32,351 nucleotides of DNA from Anaerolineae bacterium (GTDB taxonomy: Bacteria > Chloroflexota > Anaerolineae > SpSt-600): the NCBI GenBank assembly GCA_025062375.1, contig JANXAG010000004.1, forward strand, positions 74,542 to 106,892. Direction: 5' to 3'. The notes under the pieces are model-generated. The model ran no database searches. It saw nothing but the letters and a program-made list of their open reading frames with translations, and had not been told where the DNA came from. Below are positions 6,939 to 24,891 of the stretch, one piece after another; the first letter of the stretch is position 1, and the number at the start of each line of letters is the position of its first letter. The position numbers were made by a program, and so were the translations under genes.

Positions 6939-7730
6939 ATGCCCAAGATAGCTATAAGTGGAAAAGGAGGTGTGGGGAAAAGCACTCTTGCGGCCCTACT
7001 GGCCTACATATACGCTCGCAAAGGCTTTAAGGTTATAGCAGTGGACGCCGACCCGGATGGGAACCTGGCTGTGGCTTTGGGTTTCCCCCAGGAAGTTGTG
7101 GCTAAGCTAACCCCCATAGCCAGGATGGAAGATCTCATTGAAGAGCGCACTGGTGCCAGGCCCGGTTCCTATGGCGTTTTCTTCAAGATGAACCCCAAAG
7201 TGGATGATATCCCCGACAGGTTTGCGGTAGAACATCGGGGAATTAAACTTCTGGTCATGGGCACCATTGAAAAAGGCGGCTCAGGGTGTGTATGTCCGGA
7301 GAGTGTGCTCCTAAAGAACCTGGTGGCTCATCTCCTCCTTCAGCGCCAGGAAGTTCTCATCATGGATATGGAAGCCGGGGTTGAGCATTTGGGGCGAGCT
7401 ACCGCCAGAGCTGTTGATGCTTTCATCATCGTAGTTGAGCCAGGCCTCCGCAGCCTTCAGACCGCTCATGCCGTCCGGAAGCTTGCTGCTGACATAGGCG
7501 TGGAAAGGGTCTTTGTGGTGGGAAATAAAATCAAGGGTGAGGAAGATAAGGAGTTCCTCAAGGCCCATCTCCCGGGCTTCCCCTTCCTGGGATTTCTATC
7601 CTACAGTCCCCTGGCTCTGGAGGCTGATAAACTCGGGAGGCCTGTTTTTGAACTGGATGCGAACTTGGTTAAGGAAGCTGAAGAAATCGTAAAAAATCTG
7701 GAGGAGAACTTCCATGCAAGCGAAAATTAA
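6939..7730 (+). CDS. cooC: CooC-type nickel-insertion ATPase (P-loop, MinD/ParA superfamily)
   Basis: CooC proteins are ATP-dependent dimers that help load nickel into carbon monoxide dehydrogenase. The protein begins with the deviant Walker A GKGGVGKST (residues 8-16), followed by VDADPDGNLAVALG. The CooC hallmark Cys-x-Cys lies in GGSGCVCPE (Cys117 and Cys119), then the Walker B-like MDMEAGVEHLGR and the EPGLRSLQTA region. The 263-residue length matches. AAGGAGG overlaps the preceding stop and fixes the start. No CO dehydrogenase or acetyl-CoA synthase gene is in the window, so the client enzyme must be elsewhere, or this paralogue matures another metalloenzyme. Linkage to surface-protein genes is unusual. 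Family confidence high; exact client uncertain. Confidence 0.88.
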   Translation: MPKIAISGKGGVGKSTLAALLAYIYARKGFKVIAVDADPDGNLAVALGFPQEVVAKLTPIARMEDLIEERTGARPGSYGVFFKMNPKVDDIPDRFAVEHRGIKLLVMGTIEKGGSGCVCPESVLLKNLVAHLLLQRQEVLIMDMEAGVEHLGRATARAVDAFIIVVEPGLRSLQTAHAVRKLAADIGVERVFVVGNKIKGEEDKEFLKAHLPGFPFLGFLSYSPLALEADKLGRPVFELDANLVKEAEEIVKNLEENFHASEN

Positions 7731-9954
7731 ACTGAAAACTATTCCTCCAATCCCTGAAGACCCCCTTCTGCATGCTAACCTTCTCTCGGAAACCATTGGA
7801 GGGGGCACCAATGCCATCGCTGCCCTCTCAAATGGGCGTCTCTCGGTGAGCATATCGCCCTGGGGTGAATTAACCCATCTCAGATGGCCTTCCCTCTCAT
7901 GCTGCGATCATCTCCGCTACTTCACCGCCTATAAAGTCTTTAGTTTAATGGACCTTGCGGGTTTGCTTCGCGAAGAGGTTGCCCGGCCCTCTGAAGTTCG
8001 TTGGGGAGAAGAAGCCCCTTGCGAGGAGTGGAAAATCTACGGCAGGCCACTGGAGCCTTATCCGGAGCTGGGTTCCAGAGCTGGCGTCCTCACCCCCGGA
8101 GCTAACAGGCCTTTCTGGCTTAACGATCCAGTCTGGAGTTCACGGCGCAACTATGCCAGCGAGGACTCAGCGATCCTTATCACAACCCTTTCAGGCCCCG
8201 CTAACCTGGAGATAATGGATTGGATCGACCCGGAATGGGACCTGCTGGTCAGGGTGCACAGGGTAGAGGGAGCAAACCGATTTTTCTATCACTCCACCTT
8301 TGCGCCCTTTCTCAAACCTGTAAAGGGCCTCTTTGCTTCCCGGGATCCCAAAGGAGCGGGCTTTGGTGCCGTTTACTATCAGGATGAAGGCATCGTAATC
8401 CATTTCCAGCCCCGCCAGAAGAGGTGGGCATCGGGCGATTGGAGCCCGAAAAAACTGGATAGCTTTTACCCTGAAGGGGGAGTTTTCCTGGCATGGGGTT
8501 TTGATTCCCTCCCTTCTTCCTTCCAGATTGGGGCGGATAGAGCTGGCAGGAGGGTTCCTCCAGACGCTCCTCCCGGGGGAAGGCTTGACGCTGAAGACGG
8601 TATGCTCCAGGGGAATCCTGCATTCCGGGGCCCTGTGGATGCTGCCCTTTCCCTGGATCTGCCTGATTTGCGCGGCACTGTGGTGGTTTTCATCGCCCTT
8701 GGCAGCACTGCAACGGAAGCCGTTTCCCTCATACGTCAGGCCCGCGAGCTCGGAACTGAAGCCTTAATCCAGAGGGTGGAAAAAGTTTGGAAAGAAACAG
8801 GACGCAGGGTGTTTCTGCCGCTTGAGGAGAAGGATAAGACTATCCTCAGAGTGGCAAAGCGTTCCGTGCTCTCCCTCCTCATGGGCCAGGATGCAAGCTC
8901 AGGAGCTATTGTGGCTTCCCTCTCACGCCAGCCTGCCTACTATTTTGATTTCCCCCGGGATAGCGCTTTCTTTGACCTGGGCCTGGATGTGGCCGGCTTT
9001 CCGGAAAGAGTAGACCGCCACCTGGATTTCCTCATGAAGGTCCAGATGCGGGGTAAATGGGCTTTTGGGTGGATGTGGCTGGTGAACTTGAGGTGGCCTT
9101 TCTACCGCCCCGAAGGTCACTTCAAAGCCAATTACTCTGCCGATGGCTCCCCGGGTTCAATGCCTCACCCCTTTGAGATTGATTCAACGGGCCTGGCTAT
9201 CTGGAACCTCTGGCGCCACGAGGCTTTCGTCCCGGACGAAAGGAAAGAGGGCTACCAGAAGAAAGCCTGGGAGGTCATTAAAAGGGGAGCTGAAGCGCTT
9301 ATGGATTACGTGGACTTGCGCAACGGTTGGGTTCGCCCGGCTTTTGAGGATGACTCTTCAAGGCCTTCAGCTACTTTTCACGGGGCCAGTTCCACCCTTA
9401 CAGCCCTTATGGCCGCAGCCGATGCCGCTCGCCGCTGGGTAAGAGAGGAAGAAAAAGCGCTGGTGTGGGAGAAGGCTGCCTCAGCTTTGAGGCGGAGCAT
9501 GCTCAGAAAGCTTGAAGGGAAAGTCACCCGGGAGATTTTAGGCTGGCGAGGCCTTCACTGGTCCCTCTGGCCTGCCCCTCTTTTCAGGCCTGGCGACCAC
9601 CGTTGCTATCTCCTTATGGAAATGCTGGCAAAGGAGATAACGGAGAAGGTGGAAGGCAAGAGGCCGGGTTTCTCCTACCTGGCTGAGCAACTTTTCGCTT
9701 TAGCTCTTGCTCCCGGCCGCACCCCCGAGCACGAGGCCCTGATCCGCAGGGGGCTTGAGTTTCTGGCCTACAGGGTAGCGACGCCAGGCACCGACCACTT
9801 CGGTGAAATTGCGCTGCGAAAGGGCGAATTCTATCAGAACCGCACTGCTATCCCCCATCTCTGGAATGGTATCCTCTTCTATCTGGCCTTCTTAGCCTTG
9901 CATAACCCTGAAATCTTCCACCGCCAGCGCCCTCCGTATCCTCCCGAGGATTAA
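7714..9954 (+). CDS. glycoside hydrolase family 15-like protein (glucoamylase/glucodextranase type)
   Basis: A 746-residue protein with no signal peptide, so probably cytoplasmic. Residues about 1-330 form a beta-rich N-terminal domain. From about 380 an (alpha/alpha)6-barrel begins with the GH15-like signature GAIVASLSRQPAYYFDFPRDSAF, then KANYSADGSPGSMPHPFEIDSTGLAIWNLW. The segment around Glu545 (RPAFEDD) sits where the general acid of GH15 is expected. The usual second catalytic Glu near the C terminus is not obvious: that place reads IPHLWNGILFYLAFLAL. Activity on starch-like or other glucosides is therefore plausible but not certain. GGAGGAG at 7700-7706 supports ATG 7714, and the start overlaps cooC by 17 bases, showing translational coupling. 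Confidence 0.75.
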   Translation: MQAKIKLKTIPPIPEDPLLHANLLSETIGGGTNAIAALSNGRLSVSISPWGELTHLRWPSLSCCDHLRYFTAYKVFSLMDLAGLLREEVARPSEVRWGEEAPCEEWKIYGRPLEPYPELGSRAGVLTPGANRPFWLNDPVWSSRRNYASEDSAILITTLSGPANLEIMDWIDPEWDLLVRVHRVEGANRFFYHSTFAPFLKPVKGLFASRDPKGAGFGAVYYQDEGIVIHFQPRQKRWASGDWSPKKLDSFYPEGGVFLAWGFDSLPSSFQIGADRAGRRVPPDAPPGGRLDAEDGMLQGNPAFRGPVDAALSLDLPDLRGTVVVFIALGSTATEAVSLIRQARELGTEALIQRVEKVWKETGRRVFLPLEEKDKTILRVAKRSVLSLLMGQDASSGAIVASLSRQPAYYFDFPRDSAFFDLGLDVAGFPERVDRHLDFLMKVQMRGKWAFGWMWLVNLRWPFYRPEGHFKANYSADGSPGSMPHPFEIDSTGLAIWNLWRHEAFVPDERKEGYQKKAWEVIKRGAEALMDYVDLRNGWVRPAFEDDSSRPSATFHGASSTLTALMAAADAARRWVREEEKALVWEKAASALRRSMLRKLEGKVTREILGWRGLHWSLWPAPLFRPGDHRCYLLMEMLAKEITEKVEGKRPGFSYLAEQLFALALAPGRTPEHEALIRRGLEFLAYRVATPGTDHFGEIALRKGEFYQNRTAIPHLWNGILFYLAFLALHNPEIFHRQRPPYPPED

Positions 9955-18933: not shown

Positions 18934-19476
18934 TTACGGAAGCCTGGTTAAAACGGCATAGAAATCCTCTCCGAGGTGGTGGAGGGGCTTCAATTCATCG
19001 TTCTCCAACTTCCACACCTTATCAAAGGCTTCTTCCACAACCGAAGCAGCCACAACCTGGCCCACGAAGAGAGTGTGATCCCCTGTGGTGAAGGCATCGG
19101 TGAGCACACATTCTATGTGTCCGATGCACTCCTCCACCAGGGGCACGTCAATTTCCAAGGCATCAACGGGGGTTATTCCGGCCCTGGCAAATTTATCCAC
19201 ATCCCGGCCCGAGTAAGTCCCGCATATTTCCACAGCTTTAAGAAGGGAAACGCTGGGGATGTTCAGGGCAAATTGTTCGCTTTTTTTGATGAGATCGTGG
19301 GTGAAACGGACGGGGTGTATGGCTACCCCTATAAGGGGCGGAGAGAAACTCAGGGGGGTAATCCAGGAAGCGCTCATCACATTCTCCTTATCCTTGTAAT
19401 GGGAGGTCACCAGAACTACCCCACCGGCGTTTATAAGCCTAAAGGCATGGGAAACAGGAATTTCAACCTTCTTCAT
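18934..19476 (-). CDS. flavin-reductase-like FMN-binding split-barrel protein
   Basis: A 180-residue protein of the flavin reductase-like family. Typical blocks are VVLVTSHYKDKENVMSASWITPLSFSPPLIGVAI near the start, where FMN phosphate and ring contacts lie, then FALNIPS, a GRDVDKF segment, HIECVLTDAFTTGDHTLFVGQVV and a closing region. Such proteins bind FMN; some reduce it with NAD(P)H for partner oxygenases, others have unknown substrates. It is last in the minus-strand unit behind the aldolase-Fae fusion and the acetyltransferase, with only three bases separating it from the GNAT stop. A GGGGGAG ribosome site precedes the ATG. Partner enzyme unknown. Confidence 0.85.
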   Translation of the reverse strand: MKKVEIPVSHAFRLINAGGVVLVTSHYKDKENVMSASWITPLSFSPPLIGVAIHPVRFTHDLIKKSEQFALNIPSVSLLKAVEICGTYSGRDVDKFARAGITPVDALEIDVPLVEECIGHIECVLTDAFTTGDHTLFVGQVVAASVVEEAFDKVWKLENDELKPLHHLGEDFYAVLTRLP

Positions 19477-19479
19477 GAC

Positions 19480-19935
19480 TCACTCCCCCTCGTTCTTTCC
19501 CCTCTCCAGAAGTATCCCAACTTCGTAAAAACCAAGCTTGTGGTAGAATCCTCTGGCGGCGAAGTTGTCTGCTTCCGTTATAACCTCTACCTCAATGCAA
19601 CCCCTTCGGAAGCAATGGTTCACCACGTATTTAAGGAGACAGGTGCCTACACCTTTACCTCTTTCGCCTTCAGTTACCACGAATTCATCAATGAGGGCGA
19701 CCAGGCCTCCGTGGGATAAGCTTTCCCGATACCAGACAGTGGCTAACCCTTTGATGTCCCCTCTTTCCTCGGCTACAAAGGCTTCAAAGTTCGGAGAATC
19801 AAGGGCTTCCTCCCAACGCGGCGCAAATTCCTCATACGGAGAAGATTCCAGCCTCAGGAACTCCTGCAACTGAACGATAAGGTTCCAGACTCCTCTGGCA
19901 TCCTCGCGGTTTGCTTTACGGATTTTAAGGTGCAT
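19480..19935 (-). CDS. GNAT family N-acetyltransferase
   Basis: About 151 residues in the GNAT fold. The opening HLKIRKANREDARGVWNLI is the usual first strand and helix. The acetyl-CoA pyrophosphate loop is seen in VTEGERGKGVGTCLLKYVV (R/Q-x-x-G-x-G/A), followed by ITEADNFAARGFYHKLGF, the conserved end. The substrate is not predictable. I favour the ATG at 19935, which fits the family N terminus and overlaps the end of the upstream fusion gene by 11 bases; a start at 19968 is also possible and no strong ribosome site decides it. Translational coupling to the fusion gene is likely. Confidence 0.85.
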   Translation of the reverse strand: MHLKIRKANREDARGVWNLIVQLQEFLRLESSPYEEFAPRWEEALDSPNFEAFVAEERGDIKGLATVWYRESLSHGGLVALIDEFVVTEGERGKGVGTCLLKYVVNHCFRRGCIEVEVITEADNFAARGFYHKLGFYEVGILLERGKNEGE

Positions 19936-21397
19936 ATTTGAAGGGATGGCGAGCGGCATCTTTTTCATTCAGGATTTCTTCCAGTACCGGGCGCCCTTCA
20001 ATGGCCTTGCGTATGGCCGCCCGCATGGCTTTGAAATTGTTGAGCTCAATGCGCTTTTCTATCGCCGCCGAAGGATGGACAAAAGCGTTCACTATCATGA
20101 TGATTTTATCCAAAAGGGCCTCGGGCAGGGTCCCATCGTTAATCATCCAGTCAATGGCCCTGTTTATACCCCTGGCCGCCACCTCGTAAATCTGATGGCG
20201 CTGCCGGTCAGTGCGAACGGTTACCGTTGGAACCAAGATGACCATGGGACGGTCCCTGATTACGGCCAGTTCGTGGCCGGGCCGCTCCTCTTTAAGGGCT
20301 CGCGCAGCAGCTCTCCCCACGGGGCCATCCTTAGTCCCCATTACCAGGTCAATGTGAGCGATCTCATGGAAAGGAGGCCCCGAAAAGCCCTCACCCACCG
20401 CAAAGGTCAGGTCAAAGGTCCTCTTGTTCACCTGATACGCTACGGGGAAAGAGGTCCTTATAGTCTCATTGCCCAGGTGATATTCCACTTCCCGGCGGGG
20501 TATTTTGCCCAGAGCTTCCAGTTCAAACCGCATTTCCTCCTGATCTTCCCGCCGGAAAGCATCCCCCGGCATCATGGGAAGACGGGAGTCGCCCACCCTG
20601 AGGCCCATCATCATAAGGCCTTCTTTCACCGCCTGGGTAGAACCCTGCCTCACTATGATGCGAATTATTTTCTGAATCTTCCTCTGCCATTCTCTGGCGG
20701 TATCCAGGTCACCGGATTTCACTGCTCTGTAAATTTTTTGCCAGATGTCGGGCACAAGGTTGGCCGATGCCAGGATAGCTCCATCGGCTCCGGCCGCCAG
20801 GGCCGCAACTACCGTCTCATCGTGACCGGTGAAAATACCCACTTCGCCCCACACTTTCTCTATAAGGGCCATCAGGAACGGTATATCTCCGGATGAATCT
20901 TTTATGCCTATTACGTTTTCCAGGTCCAGCAGGGAGCCCTCGGCTGTCCACCATTCGTGGTGGGTGCCTGCGCACTGAGGTATGTTGTAAATGATTATGG
21001 GGATCCCCACTCTATCCACAGCCCGGTAGTGGTCGTAGATTTCGTTGTAGGTGGGCTTAAGGTAGAAAGGGGTAACCACCAGGGCGGCATCGGCTCCCGC
21101 ATCTTTGGCGAAGCGGGTTAGCTCCAGAGTCTCCCTTGTAGAAGGGGCTCCCGTGCCCGCTATTACAGGCACTTTCCCCCCGGCTTCCTCCACCGCTATC
21201 TCTATGATTCTCTTCCTTTCTTCCGGCGCAAGGTAGACGAATTCACCGGTGGTGCCAGCCACCAGAAAGCCATCCACATCGGGCAGGAGAAACCGGATGA
21301 GTTCCCGGTAAGCTTCCTCATCCAGGGAGCCATCCTTCTTAAAAGGTGTTACCAAAGCCGGAATGATCCCTTTAAACCAGGCCGGTTTTTTCCCCAT
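19925..21397 (-). CDS. DapA/NAL-family aldolase fused to a formaldehyde-activating enzyme (Fae) domain
   Basis: A 490-residue two-domain protein. Residues about 5-300 are a TIM-barrel class I aldolase of the DapA/N-acetylneuraminate lyase family: GTTGE (48-52), Tyr112, Tyr137 in IIIYNIP and the Schiff-base Lys166 in GIKDSSGD. The arginine that grips aspartate semialdehyde in true DapA (E. coli Arg138) is replaced by Cys142, so lysine synthesis is unlikely. Residues about 330-487 match Fae, which joins formaldehyde to tetrahydromethanopterin: EIAHIDLVMGTKDGPVG with catalytic His348, then VILVPTVTV, IVNAFVHPSA and the terminal EKDAARHPF. The fusion implies an aldolase whose product or substrate is formaldehyde, handed to the Fae part. 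It leads a unit with a GNAT and a flavin reductase. AGGTGAGG precedes the ATG. Domains are secure; the reaction is inferred. Confidence 0.9.
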   Translation of the reverse strand: MGKKPAWFKGIIPALVTPFKKDGSLDEEAYRELIRFLLPDVDGFLVAGTTGEFVYLAPEERKRIIEIAVEEAGGKVPVIAGTGAPSTRETLELTRFAKDAGADAALVVTPFYLKPTYNEIYDHYRAVDRVGIPIIIYNIPQCAGTHHEWWTAEGSLLDLENVIGIKDSSGDIPFLMALIEKVWGEVGIFTGHDETVVAALAAGADGAILASANLVPDIWQKIYRAVKSGDLDTAREWQRKIQKIIRIIVRQGSTQAVKEGLMMMGLRVGDSRLPMMPGDAFRREDQEEMRFELEALGKIPRREVEYHLGNETIRTSFPVAYQVNKRTFDLTFAVGEGFSGPPFHEIAHIDLVMGTKDGPVGRAAARALKEERPGHELAVIRDRPMVILVPTVTVRTDRQRHQIYEVAARGINRAIDWMINDGTLPEALLDKIIMIVNAFVHPSAAIEKRIELNNFKAMRAAIRKAIEGRPVLEEILNEKDAARHPFKYAP

Positions 21398-21431
21398 GGT
21401 AACCTCACCTTAAACCAGGTTGGACGTGGGT

Positions 21432-21459
21432 ATTATATCATACCGGGAGTTAAAGACAA
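21432..21459 (-). promoter_or_regulatory. sigma-70-type promoter of the aldolase-Fae unit
   Basis: On the minus strand TTGTCT (plus 21454-21459) and a perfect TATAAT (plus 21432-21437) are 16 bases apart, about 35 bases before the start codon at 21397. Confidence 0.6.
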
Positions 21460-23898: not shown

Positions 23899-24891
23899 AT
23901 GAAGCTCCTTATGCTTTCGGCAGAAGAAGTGCGCAAAGCGGTTCCAATGGCTGAAGCGATAGAAATAGTGAAAGATGCCTTCGCCCAGCTTTCTACAGGA
24001 AAAGCCCACGTCCCTCTGAGGACCCAGCTTCCAGTGGAAAAACACGGAGGGGTTACCCTCTTCATGCCTGCCTACCTTTCGGAAAGCGATGCTCTGGGAG
24101 CAAAGGTTGTCTCCGTTTTCCCCAGGAACCTGGACAGAGGCCTTCCCACCATATTCGCCATCGTCATAGCGGTGGACTCAGAGACCGGTTGCCCAGTAGC
24201 TCTTATGGACGGAACTTACCTCACCGCTTTGAGGACAGGAGCGGCCTCGGGGGCAGCTACCGATCTACTTGCCCGCAAGGATGCCAGGGTGGCGGCCATC
24301 TTCGGAGCTGGCGCTCAGGCCAGGACTCAACTCCTGGCTGTGTGCGAGGTCAGGAAGATAGAAAAAGTGTGGGTCTACGATGTGGTAAGGGAAAGAGCCG
24401 AAGCTTACGTAGCTGAGATGAGAGGCTCTGGCCCCATCCCCATGGATTTAAGAGTTGCCTCCTCTCCCGAAGAGGCTGTCCGGGAAGCCGATATCATCTG
24501 CACAGCCACCACTTCTTCCACCCCTGTCTTCAATGGGGAAGACCTCAAGCCAGGAGCCCATATAAACGCCATTGGGTCTTTCACCCCCCAGATGCAGGAG
24601 GTGGATGAAATCACCATCCGGCGGGCAAATAAGATTGTGGTGGATTCTCGCCCGGCTTGCATGGCTGAAGCGGGTGATCTAATCATCCCCATAAGCAAAG
24701 GGATAATCTCCGAAAAGGACATCTACGCCGAACTTGGGGAAATAGCCGCTGGCCTTAAGCCCGGCCGGGAAAGGGACGATGAAATTACTTACTTCAAATC
24801 TGTAGGCAACGCTGTCCAAGATGTATCTGTTGCCAAGCGGGTTCTGGAGAAAGCCCGGGAGATGGGGCTCGGAAAAGAGGTGGAAATCTAA
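23899..24891 (+). CDS. ornithine cyclodeaminase / mu-crystallin family NAD-dependent enzyme
   Basis: A 330-residue member of the family that includes ornithine cyclodeaminase, alanine dehydrogenase (archaeal type) and imine reductases. Lys69 in [10 protein letters not shown] corresponds to the substrate lysine; [12 protein letters not shown] (109-120) and the Rossmann motif FGAGAQA (135-141) follow. The region [15 protein letters not shown] and [12 protein letters not shown] carry the rest of the site, with [10 protein letters not shown] near the end. AAGGAGG at 23885-23891 supports the ATG. It could act on an amino acid or imine; the precise substrate cannot be read. It sits between an Fe-S protein and a YfhO-flippase fusion, neither of which explains it. 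Confidence 0.9.

Follow-up and report, generated by a model that had tools for sequence, protein, structure and literature searches.

Paired DapA-family aldolase–Fae fusions in Anaerolineae: a possible two-component system for PanB-like C1 transfer

Fae is a homopentamer whose active site lies between subunits, and PanB, or ketopantoate hydroxymethyltransferase, is a vitamin-pathway enzyme that works as a single metal-dependent transferase. The fusion of Fae to an aldolase is already known in principle from the archaeal Fae–Hps proteins. The joining of pyruvate and formaldehyde to give 4-hydroxy-2-oxobutanoate is known for other aldolases, for example YfaU/RhmA (PMC8879981, PMC7918591). The locus described here encodes a Fae-type domain fused to an aldolase of the DapA family, and it compares with these systems as follows.

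Gene A lies on the minus strand at 19925–21397 of the window, by which we mean the whole 32,351-nucleotide stretch analysed, and runs from an ATG at 21397 to a stop at 19925 through 490 codons with no break. Its product consists of a DHDPS/DapA-family class I aldolase barrel (residues 8–280, 20558–21376; Pfam E 2.8e-77, with agreement in the residue table and the fold match), a linker (residues 281–333, 20399–20557; helix 283–295 and strands 301–318 in the predicted model) and a Fae-type domain (residues 334–486, 19940–20398), all on the minus strand. The Fae-type domain covers profile positions 1–158 of 159 in Pfam (E 1.3e-31), matches 1y5y and agrees with the residue tables. The score against PF08714 is 110.2 bits for a cut-off of 27, the Fae half is just above the NCBIfam cut-off for TIGR03126 (123.3 bits, cut-off 118.05), and the barrel barely passes that of the NCBIfam dapA equivalog (208.1, cut-off 206.15). 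Both domains are predicted with confidence (pLDDT 88, pTM 0.87), and the modelled barrel fits DapA/NAL-family structures at 1.6–2.4 Å. The unbroken aldolase–Fae frame reported in the preliminary description, which gave no strand, is therefore real, as shown by the Pfam matches for both domains and by 29 further loci. The residues named there are likewise all present in the translation: GTTGE at 48–52, Tyr112, Tyr137, Cys142, Lys166 (codon 20900–20902), His348 in EIAHIDL (codon 20354–20356) and the C-terminal HPF. The region 5′ of the gene (21398–21459, minus strand) holds an extended −10 sigma-70-like site, a candidate promoter by consensus match only (−35/−10-like, with extended TG, at 21459–21432), and a AAGGTGAGG stretch that resembles a ribosome-binding site on its sequence alone.

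Fusion A is not an assembly accident, because scanning 84,980 species genomes brought up 29 further loci that encode the same fusion, which rules out chance as well. The copies are 57–67% identical to gene A, and 27 of them span residues 1 or 3 to 490. By label, 27 of the 29 loci belong to Chloroflexota (Anaerolineae, Anaerolineales, Thermoflexia), and the other two, labelled Proteobacteria (L067, 70% identical to a Chloroflexota copy) and Brocadiia (L073, at most 60% identical to every other copy), may reflect misbinning or transfer.

The same genome carries a second DapA–Fae fusion, B, of 488 aa, which is located beyond the window at C4:64517–65983, at a distance of 28 kb from A. In 23 of the 29 loci, B immediately precedes A on the same strand, and in 11 of these 23 tandem loci the two genes are separated by about 40 bases or less, or overlap; in the remaining six loci, the contig is cut or B is found on a different one. 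In a census of 199 genomes of the same class (completeness at least 85%), Fae was found in 27, with exactly two matches in 26 of them, and all matches were fused frames except for two contig-end pieces. The stand-alone bifunctional enzyme of the preliminary description is thus not borne out, as A is half of a conserved A+B pair. The barrels of A and B are approximately 50% identical and cluster together against the few available outgroups (support 0.997), a grouping that suggests, from the sequences, that fusion came first and duplication into A and B later. Elsewhere in Chloroflexota, the same pair occurs in one genome (G217), and short stand-alone Faes occur in four genomes of other classes (L177, L178, L179 and L181). 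These stand-alone Faes retain His, Asn–Lys and Gln, and two of them (L177 and L179) adjoin alcohol-dehydrogenase-like genes.

Residues were tabulated for 29 A and 32 B sequences, with a separate invariance check on 27 A sequences, among which GTTGE, Tyr137, Lys166 and His348 do not vary. In DapA numbering, Thr44, Tyr133 and the Schiff-base Lys161 are kept in 29/29 A and 32/32 B. The DapA substrate arginine (Arg138, the Cys142 column) is replaced, as had been claimed, by Cys (27) or Thr (2) in all A and by Val (21) or Thr (11) in all B. The Tyr112 column corresponds to DapA Tyr107, which in DapA extends into the site of the neighbouring subunit; 26 of the A sequences have Tyr there and the other 3 have Phe, as do 30/32 B. 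The Fae domains were aligned to Methylorubrum Fae (1y5y, whose index is used here) and the four stand-alone Chloroflexota Faes. In the UniProt Fae entry, His17 (catalytic), Asp19, Leu48, Lys66, Thr68 and Gln83 are active-site or pterin residues, and a constant offset of 4 between this numbering and the 1y5y index fits the letters. The catalytic-position His is present in 29/29 A but in just 3/32 B, 24 of which have Gln there, and the Asp is kept in 29/29 A. Among positions invariant in the five stand-alone Faes, A alone retains Glu10, His21, Ala86, Gly89 and Asn133, and B alone retains Pro57, Gly84 and Gln87, the last being kept in 32/32 B and changed to Ala, Val or Thr in A. The five-residue PNLPC loop of canonical Fae is absent in A and kept in B, the C-terminal HPF segment is missing from B, and in A a WW motif follows YNIPQCAGTH. 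Lys70, Asn69 and Leu52 are gone from both: the Leu is mostly Arg or Lys in A and Thr in B, and the Lys is Thr in A and Thr, Val or Ala in B. These tables show that Fae residues are split between A and B and that the pterin pocket is also remodelled. The idea that A and B fully complete one Fae site therefore holds only in part, given the three residues lost from both. Neither partner retains the pterin-contacting Leu and Lys, so pterin binding by the Fae fold may have been lost. The pterin-loading site proposed earlier is not canonical by this comparison, since the Leu and the Asn–Lys motif are gone from A and B, the His is in A but in few B, and the Gln is only in B.

A look for H4MPT genes in the genome had also been proposed as a check, and its outcome is negative: MCH was not found, and no match to beta-RFAP synthase exceeded the cut-off. 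Among 16 genomes with the pair (A/B+), beta-RFAP synthase above the cut-off was found in none and MCH in four. A plain H4MPT-dependent Fae is not supported, because the marker genes are absent from this genome and the Fae pterin residues are lost. The genome does encode an SHMT–GcvT fusion in a 1190-aa frame (L162:1315–4887, equivalent to C15:39814–43386). Taken together, the missing H4MPT markers and the presence of SHMT(–GcvT) make folate the likelier pterin in this organism, and the cofactor of A/B would probably be tetrahydrofolate rather than H4MPT. SHMT matches in frames of about 1050–1300 aa are common across the class, which suggests a widespread SHMT–GcvT fusion. SHMT is present in 24 of the 27 A/B+ genomes, which rules out A/B as an alternative C1 supply for a missing SHMT.

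The commonest regular neighbour of the pair is a 316-aa protein, X (L033:7354–8304; C50:8762–9703 in the genome of gene A), mostly 73–92% identical across families. Sequence searches with protein X gave no match in Pfam or NCBIfam and none of use in the PDB, and its model is a low-confidence TIM barrel (pLDDT 59) with weak matches to many aldolases. A remote X paralogue group (37–45% identity) is found in other clusters, e.g. near AOR-like genes. An X orthologue is present in 21/27 A/B+ genomes compared to 5/172 A/B− genomes (Fisher p 1e-18, kinship ignored), leaving six A/B+ genomes with no close X and five X-bearing genomes with no A/B, and by coordinates the genes run X–B–A in 13 of the 21 genomes that have both. 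X adjoins PanB in only three A/B− genomes, and we refer to these copies as PanB2: in G035 its frame overlaps that of X (L142:6039–6959), in G006 it lies beside X (L143:304–1077), and in G060 one frame separates the two (L163:5134–5985). Between G035 and G060, PanB2 is 74% identical. Because G035 and G006 hold a second PanB plus PanC elsewhere in the genome, there is no obvious case for the X-linked PanB as a CoA enzyme. In genomes having both, the PanB2 group is separate from the PanC-linked PanB. PanB as a whole is scarce where A/B occurs, with 4/27 A/B+ compared to 104/172 A/B− genomes (p 1.3e-5; draft genomes, kinship ignored). PanB is missing in 13/16 A/B+ relatives compared to 13/44 A/B−, and PanC was found in none of the 16 A/B+ genomes. 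Pantothenate auxotrophy or another route is possible in these 16 genomes. Genes for aldehyde ferredoxin oxidoreductase (AOR) adjoin A in two genomes (G083 and G104) and other PanB-like genes in two more (G030 and G065); the one at L165:10699–12690 is Pfam-confirmed, and those at L166:11329–13290, L173:8018–9976 and L151:1504–3480 were assigned from N-terminal sequence.

Several genes in the window recur in this context. A CooC/MinD-like P-loop ATPase (6939–7730, plus strand) has homologues of 61–64% identity in five X regions (L142, L149, L150, L171 and L172) and one A/B locus (L078), and an ornithine cyclodeaminase/mu-crystallin family protein (23899–24891, plus strand) has a homologue (58%) beside PanB2–X in G035 (L142). 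A Flavin_Reduct-domain protein (18934–19476, minus strand) is the third gene of the minus-strand run that contains A, and a distant homologue (38%) adjoins X–PanB2 in G060. Between it and A lies a GNAT-like acetyltransferase gene (19480–19968, minus strand; assigned by eye from the translation), which overlaps A downstream and is possibly co-transcribed with it; no homologue of this gene was found near A in related loci. A 746-aa protein at 7714–9954 has no Pfam match and looks by eye like a glycoside hydrolase (glucoamylase-like).

A formaldehyde- or C1-handling aldolase is the best functional class for A/B. Within this class, our main reading, which we regard as plausible but far from secure, is that A and B form a two-component aldolase/C1-carrier complex for PanB-like 2-oxo-acid hydroxymethyl transfer. 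The two proteins would assemble as subunits of one enzyme, in which the class I, Schiff-base barrel would form or split, depending on direction, the C–C bond that links a 2-oxo acid to formaldehyde, and the Fae-type domains would pass formaldehyde to or from tetrahydropterin with none set free. Overall, this would amount to the transfer that PanB achieves in a single unrelated protein, so that A/B would do the task of the X-linked PanB with a Schiff-base aldolase and a Fae-fold C1 carrier. Candidate substrates include 4-hydroxy-2-oxobutanoate and ketopantoate; the earlier suggestion of the former is not directly supported, and context points to PanB-like transfer, for which that acid is one possibility. 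Against the main reading stand the loss of the pterin Leu and Lys, the restriction of the X–PanB arrangement to three genomes, the A/B+ genomes with no close X and the X-bearing ones with no A/B, the use of draft genomes and of PanB statistics that ignore kinship, MCH in 4/16 and the dapA cut-off being passed. A more elaborate version, somewhat on the unlikely side, would have A and B build a hetero-oligomer with composite sites (His from A, Gln and the loop from B, possibly an A tyrosine reaching into the B barrel site), making it a novel non-orthologous counterpart of PanB that couples aldol cleavage to channelled formaldehyde capture on folate.

The loss of the catalytic His from most B, and of Lys70, Asn69 and Leu52 from A and B, would also fit a barrel that acts as a 2-oxo-acid aldolase on a sugar- or amino-acid-derived substrate, with the Fae domain merely an oligomerisation or ligand-sensing module. 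We consider this unlikely, as A retains His and Asp and B retains Gln in every sequence, both domains are strongly constrained (mean identity 66% within A, 62% within B), and PanB, which may take the place of A/B beside X, is a C1-transfer enzyme. The version in the preliminary description, where each fusion is self-contained and channels formaldehyde from 4-hydroxy-2-oxobutanoate onto H4MPT, draws on a real fusion with real catalytic His and Lys and on the aldol chemistry of YfaU/RhmA (PMC8879981, PMC7918591). It is nevertheless improbable in view of the obligate pairing with B, a genome that is devoid of H4MPT marker genes, and the absence of the Fae Lys and Gln from A.

The distribution of PanB bears on a further reading, in which A/B is a non-orthologous ketopantoate synthase for coenzyme A biosynthesis. 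The scarcity of PanB among the A/B+ relatives favours it, but it is weakened because none of the 16 A/B+ genomes has PanC, which acts at a later step, and because the X-linked PanB of G035 and G006 coexists with a separate PanB and PanC; we rate it as very improbable. Equally slight is the prospect that A is an ordinary DapA of lysine synthesis with a neutral Fae tail. The dapA equivalog cut-off is passed by B (242.2) as well as A, but Arg138 is replaced throughout both families, Tyr107 is Phe in nearly all B, and a neutral tail would hardly remain conserved in every copy.

We found no paper combining Fae, DHDPS and fusion, nor Fae with Anaerolineae, in the literature covered, which takes in few subscription journals; the preliminary description likewise knew of no described DapA–Fae fusion, and within that coverage we found no earlier description of a DapA-family partner, of two obligate diverged copies or of the Fae residue split. 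If the main reading is true, Fae chemistry reaches beyond H4MPT, and uncultured Anaerolineae have an undescribed C1 route. An enzyme for hydroxymethyl 2-oxo acids that does not release formaldehyde would also be what synthetic homoserine-cycle designs aim at with promiscuous aldolases (PMC8879981).

Compared with PanB, A/B belongs to an unrelated protein family, and the likeness, drawn solely from genomic context, lies in the proposed net reaction (2-oxo acid plus C1-tetrahydropterin) and in a possibly shared slot beside X. With the DapA/NAL (DHDPS) superfamily, A/B shares the barrel fold, Lys161, Tyr133, Thr44–Thr45 and GTTGE, and differs in the lost Arg138, the paired paralogues and the C-terminal Fae domain, to which A adds the WW motif. 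A is homologous by sequence to Fae (PF08714, TIGR03126; Methylorubrum extorquens 1y5y/1y60; phmmer E 1e-17), keeps the catalytic-position His and the Asp and passes both curated cut-offs; unlike Fae, A and B are fused to an aldolase, always occur as two diverged copies, have lost Lys70, Asn69 and Leu52, and are found here in an organism with no H4MPT marker genes. The archaeal Fae–Hps proteins (PRK13307) likewise join a Fae domain to a formaldehyde-handling aldolase barrel and share the same channelling logic. However, their Fae domain is N-terminal and its partner is 3-hexulose-6-phosphate synthase, whereas in A the Fae domain is C-terminal and the partner is a DHDPS-type Schiff-base barrel (PF00701); PRK13307 matches A with 91 bits (cut-off 274) over the Fae part only, and A has no Hps domain. 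If our main reading holds, A/B would thus join archaeal Fae–Hps as a second, independent case in which Fae is coupled to a formaldehyde aldolase, now in two subunits.
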